Below are positions 58,965 through 62,847 of a stretch of DNA of 64,000 nt, piece by piece. The first letter of the stretch is position 1. Each line of letters opens with the position of its first letter. This DNA comes from Janthinobacterium sp. CG3 (GTDB lineage: Bacteria > Pseudomonadota > Gammaproteobacteria > Burkholderiales > Burkholderiaceae_D): NCBI RefSeq assembly GCF_000344615.1, contig NZ_KB467824.1, forward strand, positions 4,872,367 through 4,936,366. Reading direction: 5' to 3'. The translations under genes and the position numbers were made by a program. A model generated the notes under the pieces. It was given only the letters and a program-made list of their open reading frames with translations. It ran no database searches and was not told where the DNA came from.

Positions 58965-59061
58965 GGGGACAGACCACGATTTCCGGGGGAAGTTTCCCGG
59001 AAATCGTGGTCTGTCCCCGGTGTGGAGCGCGGAAATCGTGGTCTGTCCCCGGTGTGGAGCG
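58965..59061. repeat. 32-bp tandem repeat with inverted copy
   Basis: Two exact 32-base units (58998-59029 and 59030-59061) containing GGAAATCGTGGTCTGTCCCC followed by GGTGTGGAGCG. Upstream, GGGGACAGACCACGATTTCC at 58965-58984 is the inverted copy, so 58965-59018 can form a hairpin with a ~20-bp stem. It lies between yhdP and the nitrilase-like gene. Confidence 0.9.
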
Positions 59062-59096
59062 TCACGCTCATCAAACGAGAACGGGCAAGAATTTCT

Positions 59097-59894
59097 ATGG
59101 ATACAGTTGCAGCAGTACAGATGATTTCCTCGCCGTCGGTGGCCGACAACATCGAGACGGCGCGCCGCCTGATCGGCCAGGCCGCCGCCACCGGCGCCTG
59201 CCTGGTGACGCTGCCGGAATACTGGGCCATCATGGGCCAGCACGACAGCGACAAGGTGGCCCACGCCGAGCAGGCCGGGCGCGGCCCGATCCAGGACTTC
59301 ATGGCGCAGATGGCGCGCCAGCACGGCGTCTGGCTGATCGGCGGCACGCTGCCGCTGGCCAGCGAGTTGGAGGGCAAGGTCTTGAACACCACGCTGGTGT
59401 ACGACCCGCAGGGCCGGCCGGCCGGACGCTACGACAAGATCCACCTGTTCGGCTTCACCAAGGGCAGCGAATCCTACGACGAGGCGCGCACCATCGTGCC
59501 GGGCGCGGCGGTGGGCAGCTTCCAGGCGCCATTCGGCCGGGTCGGCCTGTCGGTCTGCTACGACCTGCGCTTCCCCGAGCTGTACCGGGCGATGGGGCCG
59601 TGCGCGCTGATCGTCGTGCCGGCCGCCTTCACCCACACCACCGGCCTGGCGCACTGGGAGGTGTTGCTGCGCGCGCGGGCGATTGAAAACCAATGCTACG
59701 TGCTGGCCGCCGCGCAGGGCGGGCTGCACCCGAACGGCCGCCGCACCTGGGGCCATAGCATGCTGATCGACCCGTGGGGCGAGATCAAGGCGCTCTTGCC
59801 CGAGGGCGAGGGCGTGGTCAGCGGCGCGGTCGACCCGCTTTTCCTGGCCAGCGTGCGCGAGTCGCTGCCGGCCCTGCAGCACCGCACCATGTAA
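59097..59894 (+). CDS. Carbon-nitrogen hydrolase (nitrilase superfamily, Nit-type)
   Basis: 265-residue cytosolic amidase-like enzyme. The nitrilase Glu-Lys-Cys triad is visible as LPEYWAIMG (E), GRYDKIHLFGF (K) and GLSVCYDLRFPELYRAMG (C). The sequence is closest to the Nit1/Nit2 group, several of which act on deaminated glutathione or omega-amides (from family knowledge). ATG 59097 begins MDTVAAVQMISSPSVADNIE, the canonical opening; sequence upstream is a repeat. It lies between yhdP and tldD, a conserved neighbourhood in betaproteobacteria. Exact substrate unproven. Confidence 0.93.
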   Translation: MDTVAAVQMISSPSVADNIETARRLIGQAAATGACLVTLPEYWAIMGQHDSDKVAHAEQAGRGPIQDFMAQMARQHGVWLIGGTLPLASELEGKVLNTTLVYDPQGRPAGRYDKIHLFGFTKGSESYDEARTIVPGAAVGSFQAPFGRVGLSVCYDLRFPELYRAMGPCALIVVPAAFTHTTGLAHWEVLLRARAIENQCYVLAAAQGGLHPNGRRTWGHSMLIDPWGEIKALLPEGEGVVSGAVDPLFLASVRESLPALQHRTM

Positions 59895-59933: not shown

Positions 59934-61394
<1,461 letters not shown>

Positions 61395-61458
61395 TAAGAG
61401 GATGGCGCGCCGCCGGCGTTGAAAAAAATCCGAGGCGGGCAGCCGGCGCCAAGGCGGC

Positions 61459-61488
61459 AAGGTCGGACCGTCGGGGTCCGGCCCCGGG
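61459..61488. repeat. Palindromic GGTCGGACC-type repeat, copy 3
   Basis: AAGGTCGGACCGTCGGGGTC followed by CGGCCCCGGG after the tldD stop; related to copies at 2185-2218 and 21969-21999. Confidence 0.5.
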
Positions 61489-61549
61489 TGCGCGCCCTTG
61501 GTTTCGCCTATGTCGCGGCGCCGCAACAAAGTACAAAAGGACAATTTCC

Positions 61550-61579
61550 TTGCCAAGCGGCGTGGATTGGCGGTATAGT
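61550..61579 (+). promoter_or_regulatory. Sigma-70 promoter of the aroG leader
   Basis: TTGCCA (61550-61555) and TATAGT (61574-61579) separated by 18 bases. A start near 61586 places the leader peptide's second Met 19 bases into the transcript and gives a ~160-base leader before the terminator. Confidence 0.6.
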
Positions 61580-61604
61580 CGTTGCGACTTCAATGGATTC
61601 CGAC

Positions 61605-61673
61605 ATGCACAGCTTCCCATTTTTTACCGGTTATTTTTACTTTAGCAATTCCAACCCAAAGGCGGTGGAGTAG
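61605..61673 (+). CDS. Phe/Tyr-rich leader peptide of aroG
   Basis: 22-residue peptide, MHSFPFFTGYFYFSNSNPKAV plus a final E; an in-frame ATG at 61593 would add MDSD. Five Phe (at 61614, 61620, 61623, 61635, 61641) and two Tyr (61632, 61638) fall within ten codons. Such density of the pathway's end-product codons, directly before a DAHP synthase gene and followed by a terminator, is the signature of an attenuation leader (compare pheA and pheST leaders). The stop TAG is at 61671-61673. The peptide itself needs no function; ribosome stalling on it is the sensor. Confidence 0.8.
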   Translation: MHSFPFFTGYFYFSNSNPKAVE

Positions 61674-61748
61674 CGGCCGGTTCACGTAGCAAGCAAAAAC
61701 GAGATCCCAGCAAATCCTGAAAACCGCCAACGATGGCGGTTTTTTTTT
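61661..61748 (+). promoter_or_regulatory. aroG attenuator: antiterminator arm and Rho-independent terminator
   Basis: Terminator stem ACCGCC (61723-61728) / GGCGGT (61735-61740) followed by T8. The same GGCGGT also occurs at 61661-61666, at the end of the leader reading frame, and can pair instead with ACCGCC to form an antiterminator. A ribosome stalled on the Phe/Tyr codons would leave that arm free; one reaching the stop codon at 61671 would cover it and allow termination. Confidence 0.75.
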
Positions 61749-61788
61749 ACTTCGACGTTTTATCTTTCGACTCTTTTTGGAGAACACC

Positions 61789-62847
61789 ATGCCACGCACC
61801 GACGATCTGCGCATCCGCGAAATGAAAGAATTAACGCCGCCGTCGCACCTGATCCGCGAATTCGCCTGCTCGGAAAACGCCGGCCAGACCGCCGCCGACG
61901 CGCGCATCGCGCTGCACCGCATCCTGCACGGCCAGGACGACCGCCTGATGGTGGTGATCGGGCCGTGCTCGATCCACGACACCAAGGCGGCGATGGAATA
62001 CGCGCGCCTGCTGGTGAAGGAGCGGGCGCGCTTCGCCGGCGAACTCGAAATCGTGATGCGGGTGTACTTCGAGAAGCCGCGCACGACGGTGGGCTGGAAG
62101 GGGCTGATCAACGACCCGTACATGGACAACAGCTTCCGCATCAACGACGGCCTGCGCATGGCGCGCGAGCTGCTGCGCGACATCAACGAGCTGGGCCTGC
62201 CGGCCGGCACCGAATTCCTCGACGTGATCAGCCCGCAGTACATCGCCGACCTGATCAGCTGGGGCGCGATCGGCGCCCGCACCACCGAATCGCAGGTGCA
62301 CCGCGAACTGGCGTCGGGGTTGTCGTGCCCGGTCGGCTTCAAGAACGGCACCGACGGCAACGTCAAGATCGCCGTCGAGGCGATCAAGGCGGCCTCGCAG
62401 CCGCACCATTTCCTGTCGGTGACCAAGGGCGGCCACTCGGCCATCGTCTCGACCAACGGCAACGAGGACTGCCACATCATCCTGCGCGGCGGCAAGGCGC
62501 CGAATTACGACGCCGTCAGCGTCGAGGAGGCCTGCAAGGCCATCGCCGCGCAAGGCTTGGCGGCGCGCCTGATGATCGACGCCTCGCACGCCAACAGCTC
62601 GAAGAAACCGGAAAACCAGGTGCCGGTGTGCGCCGACATCGCCGCCCAGGTGGCCGGCGGCGACAGCCGCATCGTCGGCGTGATGGTCGAATCGCACCTG
62701 GTGGCCGGGCGCCAGGACCTGGTGCCGGGCAAAGAGCTGGTGTACGGCCAGTCCGTGACCGACGGTTGCATCGACTGGACCCAGAGTGTTGCCGTGCTCG
62801 AAGGCCTGGCCGCCGCGGTGCGCCAGCGCCGCCTGCAACAGGACTGA
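61789..62847 (+). CDS. aroG: 3-Deoxy-7-phosphoheptulonate synthase (DAHP synthase, class I)
   Basis: 352 residues; condenses erythrose 4-phosphate and phosphoenolpyruvate in the first step of aromatic amino-acid synthesis. Class I AroFGH motifs: MVVIGPCSIHDTKAAMEYAR, MRVYFEKPRTTVGWKGLIND, GTEFLDVISPQYIADLISWG, GARTTESQVHRELASGLSCP, GFKNGTDGNVKIAVEA and IDASHANSSKKPENQ. GGAG 6 bases before ATG 61789 fixes the start. A Phe/Tyr-rich leader and attenuator lie directly upstream, so the enzyme is likely transcriptionally repressed when Phe-/Tyr-tRNA is charged; it may also be feedback-inhibited. Assignment to the Phe-sensitive AroG isozyme is inferred from the leader. Confidence 0.95.
   Translation: MPRTDDLRIREMKELTPPSHLIREFACSENAGQTAADARIALHRILHGQDDRLMVVIGPCSIHDTKAAMEYARLLVKERARFAGELEIVMRVYFEKPRTTVGWKGLINDPYMDNSFRINDGLRMARELLRDINELGLPAGTEFLDVISPQYIADLISWGAIGARTTESQVHRELASGLSCPVGFKNGTDGNVKIAVEAIKAASQPHHFLSVTKGGHSAIVSTNGNEDCHIILRGGKAPNYDAVSVEEACKAIAAQGLAARLMIDASHANSSKKPENQVPVCADIAAQVAGGDSRIVGVMVESHLVAGRQDLVPGKELVYGQSVTDGCIDWTQSVAVLEGLAAAVRQRRLQQD

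Follow-up and report, generated by a model that had tools for sequence, protein, structure and literature searches.

Enterobacterial attenuators such as those of trpL, pheL and ilvL work through alternating pairings of the leader RNA (1:2, 2:3 and 3:4), with the control codons placed before the 1:2 hairpin. In Rfam, the Phe_leader family (RF01859) covers elements that stand ahead of pheA or pheST. The aroR leader of Corynebacterium glutamicum, located upstream of aroF, is described as acting by ribosome-mediated attenuation in two reports (PMC4046766; PMC11802643), and according to the second of these, limitation for phenylalanine matters while the availability of tyrosine does not. A further case has been proposed in Acholeplasma, where the account of the uORFC-13-1 motif presents a phenylalanine-dependent upstream open reading frame (ORF) lying by a terminator before aroF (PMC8632094). 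Attenuators before tyrA operons, including a DAHP synthase-tyrA operon of Vibrio, figure in Merino's attenuator database, as that resource is cited in PMC1173090. In Escherichia coli, the first committed aromatic step is controlled through TyrR and TrpR (PMC5343134).

The locus analysed here comes from Janthinobacterium sp. CG3, within a window of 64,000 nucleotides that represents the whole stretch of DNA considered. Ahead of aroG, it very probably carries a complete and conserved ribosome-mediated transcription attenuator of that gene, as judged from sequence. The hallmarks are there: codons for products of the pathway are clustered in a short leader, and a terminator separates this leader from aroG. 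The original prediction had stressed that such a device was placed on DAHP synthase. The identity of the gene stands, its product scoring 581.6 bits against the NCBIfam AroG model NF006723 (cut-off 568), but this placement was already known in Corynebacterium and had been proposed in Acholeplasma. The element is of a known kind, and attenuation of a DAHP synthase is not unprecedented; no Rfam family matches it here.

The likeness to aroR, as judged from published descriptions, lies in a short Phe-Tyr-Phe leader that likewise precedes a DAHP synthase gene subject to ribosome-mediated attenuation; by contrast, aroR belongs to another phylum and is reported to answer phenylalanine, not tyrosine. 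The Acholeplasma motif, compared by description alone, likewise associates an upstream ORF and a terminator before DAHP synthase, yet its 24 sequences are reported from Acholeplasma and environmental samples only, that is, from unrelated organisms. With trpL, pheL and ilvL, likened by scheme alone, the principle of alternating pairings is the same, whereas the genes and sequences differ; the mixture of aromatic codons recalls the multivalent ilv leader. The Phe_leader family also follows the same principle, with its Phe-rich leader and terminator, but the gene controlled here is aroG. Against the RF01859 model the window reaches 23.6 bits, for a gathering threshold of 55, and eight places of the same genome score higher than the element, none of them over the cut-off. 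Six relatives scanned gave no Rfam match at E 0.01, and the T-box model was not among the eight Rfam matches obtained up to E 5 in 61400-61900. We found no betaproteobacterial description of an aroG element in the literature searched, subscription papers being largely outside it, so that a prior prediction is possible.

Organization of the element

Direct reading of the sequence places a promoter, a leader ORF, a repeated arm and a terminator ahead of aroG, all on the forward strand. The promoter, of the sigma-70 type, combines TTGCCA (61550-61555) and TATAGT (61574-61579) across 18 nucleotides, with 10 of 12 matches, and transcription would start near 61586. The leader ORF, MHSFPFFTGYFYFSNSNPKAVE, comprises 22 codons followed by TAG (61605-61673, with its ATG at 61605 and its stop codon at 61671); no strong Shine-Dalgarno sequence is seen by eye before it. 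Its codons 4-13 (61614-61643) read F P F F T G Y F Y F, hence the five Phe and two Tyr in ten codons of the original prediction. The hexamer GGCGGT is found twice, once in the end of the leader (61661-61666) and once in the 3' arm of the terminator (61735-61740), both at the coordinates first given.

The first copy, extended by GGA, forms the putative antiterminator arm 2 (61661-61669). Arm 3 (61715-61728) consists of UCC (61715-61717), the partner of the GGA of arm 2, and of ACCGCC (61723-61728), for which the GGCGGU in arm 2 and that in arm 4 are alternative partners. The intrinsic terminator, 3:4 (61720-61748), is made of AAAACCGCCA (61720-61729) and TGGCGGTTTT (61734-61743), with a T run at 61740-61748; a terminator had indeed been announced, but its run counts nine T, not eight. 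To these parts we add a hairpin that had escaped the earlier reading, a predicted 1:2 or anti-antiterminator structure at 61645-61674 (GCAAUUCCAACC... paired with ...GGUGGAGUAGC), which overlaps arm 2 and would sequester it. With this hairpin, none of the three alternating pairings known from classical attenuators is missing. The presumed controlled gene, aroG (61789-62847, ATG at 61789), codes for a type I DAHP synthase of 352 amino acids. Further upstream, on the same strand, are tldD (59934-61394) and a gene of a nitrilase-family amidohydrolase (59022-59894).

Conservation in the family

A protein search with aroG gathered a first set of 111 loci, including that of the window. Most belong to Oxalobacteraceae (Janthinobacterium, Massilia, Duganella, Rugamonas, Pseudoduganella, Herminiimonas, Undibacterium, Herbaspirillum, Collimonas and others), with a few loci of Caballeronia, Paraburkholderia and Burkholderia. 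The set includes certain genomes twice, and 95 of the 106 element sequences found are distinct; once near-identical ones are left out, 67 elements remain as a non-redundant set, 66 of which (L004 being omitted) make up the alignment termed A1 below. A script recovered a leader and a terminator at 106 of the 111 loci, none of these 106 lacking the GGCGG arm. One more leader, MHQVALSTCIFYFSHSSPKAVE at L022, is present on reading, below the aromatic density that the script demanded. The remaining four loci are L002, L027, L051 and L090. L002 (G000:C1:3308031-3309065) is the second DAHP synthase of the Janthinobacterium genome, a paralog 53% identical to the first, and it is devoid of such a leader. 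L027 and L051 come from one and the same genome, a 2.2 Mb metagenome-assembled genome (MAG) of Oxalobacteraceae, and L090 from a short MAG contig; there, the aroG gene is deprived of leader and terminator, apparently through loss.

The promoter recurs as TTGCCA-N17/18-TATAGT ahead of the leader in 39 of the 67 non-redundant elements. The leader frame and the alternative pairings, whose lack of conservation in relatives had been named as an outcome that would speak against attenuation, are both conserved in the family and recognizable in part of the order. A further stretch, between the stop codon of the leader and the terminator (61675-61716; GGTTCACGTAGC...CGAGATCCCAGC), shows in much of the family more conservation than the weak inner pairs of the antiterminator account for.

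Predicted alternative pairings and the presumed place of the ribosome

Folding and covariation had both been put forward as checks. Folded alone, the sequence 61586-61760 has an ordinary stability (z -1.19, with 26 of 200 shuffles equally good). For the terminator, covariation score and double changes both surpass every one of 500 shuffles, while the number of its pairs having a double change does not (70/500); RNAalifold, run on the alignment, found the terminator alone. For the 1:2 hairpin, 89.2% of the cells are paired, a share that drops to 32.5-62.8% once the partner is slid, and only 3 of 500 shuffles reach as high; its covariation score is not above that of shuffles, 130 of 500 being equal or better. 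By prediction and by pair counts, this hairpin would sequester arm 2.

The 2:3 core of the antiterminator is nearly invariant and, as a consequence, displays no covariation in A1 (228 of 500 shuffles are as good on pairing). When arm 4 is omitted, which mimics the moment when RNA polymerase is just past arm 3, all 67 non-redundant elements have a minimum-energy fold closed by 2:3. The energy of its hairpin is below that of the terminator in 63 of 67, a comparison of separate hairpins and not of their competition during transcription. The interior of 2:3 is only slightly better than shuffled sequence (mean z -0.73, 15 of 67 elements in the best tenth, z +0.34 in the window). Outside the family, covariation does appear in one pair: the base flanking the GGCGG/CCGCC core is Watson-Crick matched in 19 of 27 elements for 11.4 expected, a level reached by 22 of 20000 shuffles, and the signal weakens to 20 of 27 for 16.7 expected when G-U is allowed (147 of 5000 shuffles), it being understood that this single pair was picked after viewing the table and that the statistics ignore relatedness. 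By prediction, antiterminator and terminator would be mutually exclusive.

The spacing of the parts bears on whether a ribosome could choose between them. Counted from the first base of the last aromatic codon, arm 2 starts after 20 nt (37/67) or 14 nt (25/67); counted from the first base of the arm, the stop codon follows after 10 nt (34/67) or 16 nt (20/67), and later in 13 elements. A ribosome covers roughly 12 nt beyond the first base of the codon in its A site, and around 15 nt upstream of its P site. With this footprint, arm 2 would stay free if the ribosome were held on the aromatic codons, where it would cover the 5' strand of 1:2, and would be covered once the ribosome had reached an early stop codon. 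The distances in most of the 67 elements fit such blocking or freeing, and the classical geometry that had been claimed for the locus is upheld in this respect.

In the scheme that we infer from this arrangement, for translation and stalling as for the amino acids sensed and the direction of the response, RNA polymerase would start near 61586 and the leader would be translated. Were charged tRNA-Phe, and probably also tRNA-Tyr, scarce, the ribosome would stall on the last aromatic codons (61632-61643) and cover the 5' strand of 1:2; arm 2 (61661-61669), left free, would then pair with arm 3 (61715-61728), no terminator would form and aroG would be transcribed. With phenylalanine and tyrosine plentiful, the ribosome would reach the stop codon at 61671 and cover arm 2, so that arm 3 would pair with arm 4 (61734-61743) and the transcript end at the T run, after approximately 160 nt. 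If the leader remained untranslated, 1:2 would occupy arm 2 and the terminator would form as well. The original interpretation, ribosome-mediated attenuation of aroG, is supported by these comparisons.

The amino acids sensed

Codons were counted at fixed distances from arm 2 in the leader frame, and were not anchored on Phe; the leaders had been selected for aromatic density, yet not for the position of codons relative to the arm. Phe stands 20 nt ahead of the arm in every one of the 102 in-frame leaders (64/64 in the non-redundant set). The next one upstream is Tyr in 85 of 102 (with Phe in 8 and Trp in 7), or in 56 of 64 when non-redundant, and the third codon back from the arm is again Phe (92/102; 58/64). 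At the conserved Tyr position, synonymous codons are both in use, TAC 46 times and TAT 10 times. Phe is present in all 87 distinct leader peptides of the first set, Tyr in 84 and Trp in 20; among 36 distinct leaders outside the family the figures are 36, 33 and 19, all these counts of presence being due in part to the choice of leaders rich in aromatic residues. Trp occurs in runs such as FYFWF, FFWYL and FYFWYYF, the last one from L148; leaders from Massilia offer Phe-Trp-Phe, and leaders from Paraburkholderia Phe-Phe-Trp-Tyr.

If the mechanism is right, the sequences make it nearly certain that phenylalanine is a signal; tyrosine is a likely one, and tryptophan a possible one in some lineages. 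A combined sensor would be reasonable, since DAHP synthase feeds the synthesis of all three aromatic amino acids. It is conceivable, though less likely than not, that the leader is multivalent: where the pathway begins, one and the same short ORF would read the charge of the tRNAs for all three aromatic amino acids, in a device spread through much of the order whose mix of Phe, Tyr and Trp codons each lineage would have adjusted. The original prediction took the mixed use of Phe and Tyr codons to mean sensing of both. This may fail, as analogy with C. glutamicum warns, because aroR there is reported to answer limitation for phenylalanine and not the availability of tyrosine.

This brings in the alternative that the attenuator senses phenylalanine alone, its Tyr codons being passengers. 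The universal presence of Phe in the distinct leaders, where Tyr falls a little short, the invariant Phe codon 20 nt before the arm and the Corynebacterium precedent, a Phe-Tyr-Phe leader reported to respond to phenylalanine but not to tyrosine (PMC11802643), all point that way. Yet Tyr precedes the last Phe in as many as 56 of 64 non-redundant leaders while its codon varies between TAC and TAT, as if the residue mattered, and we regard a sensor of phenylalanine alone as rather unlikely.

Unlikely alternatives: arrest, trans-acting RNA or chance

Leader peptides may also act by arresting the ribosome, as do TnaC and SpeFL. Here a nascent peptide with the motif SNSNPKAVE would respond to a ligand, in place of codon-specific starvation. 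In the family, the N-terminal residues of the leader vary freely, whereas the peptide that follows the aromatic codons, SxSxPxAVE (SNSNPKAVE in the window), is well conserved, as arrest would have it. But four of the 106 elements (L046, L063, L070 and L108) keep the GGCGG arm in another reading frame, with a different peptide, and outside the family the peptide downstream of the aromatic run is quite different. The C-terminal sequence thus appears to be conserved as RNA, the arms of 1:2 and 2:3 accounting for its constancy, and arrest is most improbable.

Chance has to be considered with some care, because neither a fold nor a terminator suffices to make a case: in 1 kb the number of terminators is not beyond expectation (1 found, 1.5 expected), and the fold of the window, as reported above, is ordinary. 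The significance of the element comes from the combination of its parts and from their conservation. As a sample of the order outside the family we took the genes with at least 58% identity to aroG, with 97 upstream regions, of which 96 were readable (of all 120 upstream regions fetched, lower-identity ones included, 9 had been dropped because they had no usable start match). The strict test asked for three or more aromatic residues in ten within a leader ORF, for a terminator, and for a second copy of the terminator arm towards the end of the leader; 21 of these 96 regions passed it, against 0 of 960 dinucleotide shuffles. At least five aromatic residues in ten codons are present in 32 of 96 regions versus 34 of 1920 shuffles, and at least six in 26 of 96 versus 1 of 1920.

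These figures weigh against another view, in which the element would be a constitutive premature terminator or the gene of a small RNA of about 160 nt acting in trans, with an ORF there by accident. To be sure, promoter and terminator both belong to the element itself, and 61675-61716 is conserved in many relatives despite weak inner pairing. An accidental ORF, however, would rarely be so rich in aromatic residues, and in most elements fixed spacings separate arm 2 from the control and stop codons; as a substitute for attenuation, this view has very little chance of being correct, though the terminated RNA may play an additional role in trans. As for a terminator of tldD accompanied by a chance ORF, it is extremely improbable, for although that gene ends at 61394 on the same strand, the terminator lies some 330 nt past it, downstream of a promoter recurring in 39 of 67 elements, and leader and arm are conserved together with it.

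Distribution and significance

Attenuation of aroG as proposed here is, by sequence criteria, widespread in the order but not universal, most of the sampled aroG regions of the order being without it. This follows from three sets of counts. A covariance model of the element, run at E 0.01 over 300 genomes of the order and 185 of the class, matched 81 of the 300. Each of the best 30 among these matches precedes a DAHP synthase gene whose product shares 62-100% identity with that of the window, and 21 of the 30 are outside the family. Where genomes had also been searched for the protein, 24 of 29 non-family matches are just upstream of aroG and five are elsewhere, one of them at E 6e-5; because of these five, weak matches to the model should not be counted as members. 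Second, 27 of the 96 readable regions outside the family have an aromatic-rich leader and a terminator (the terminator being seen, on reading, in 27 of the 32). Among DAHP synthase rows of lower identity (49-56%; 23 of 32 listed rows fetched), the joint criteria gave 0 of 15 readable regions. Third, the class scan matched 12 of 185 genomes, with the element at aroG in the window itself, in one genome of the order and in two genomes of a single family outside the order (L148 and L149); the other eight had no aroG within the stretch examined and were taken as chance. Within the Janthinobacterium genome, no second copy is convincing, the next matches, at E 0.03 and 0.36, being respectively the opposite strand of the same terminator and a site with no aroG nearby.

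In many species of the order, the first aromatic step seems to be governed by the charging of tRNA, by means of a leader RNA of widely divergent sequence. The differences in Phe, Tyr and Trp codons between lineages would make up a natural experiment on how a single leader weighs these amino acids against one another. The element would also offer a practical handle, since removal of the terminator should raise the flux into aromatic products.

Two minor features of the leaders deserve mention. Their Phe codons are TTT in 239 of 313 cases, versus 92 of 437 when aroG itself is counted at those 67 loci; leaders thus favour the synonym that is rarer in aroG, a preference that could serve either sharper stalling or a leader free of structure. 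At two loci, L106 and L026, the -10 hexamer is only 6 and 10 nt from the ATG of the leader, and the mRNA would there begin at or beside the start codon, leaderless or nearly so.
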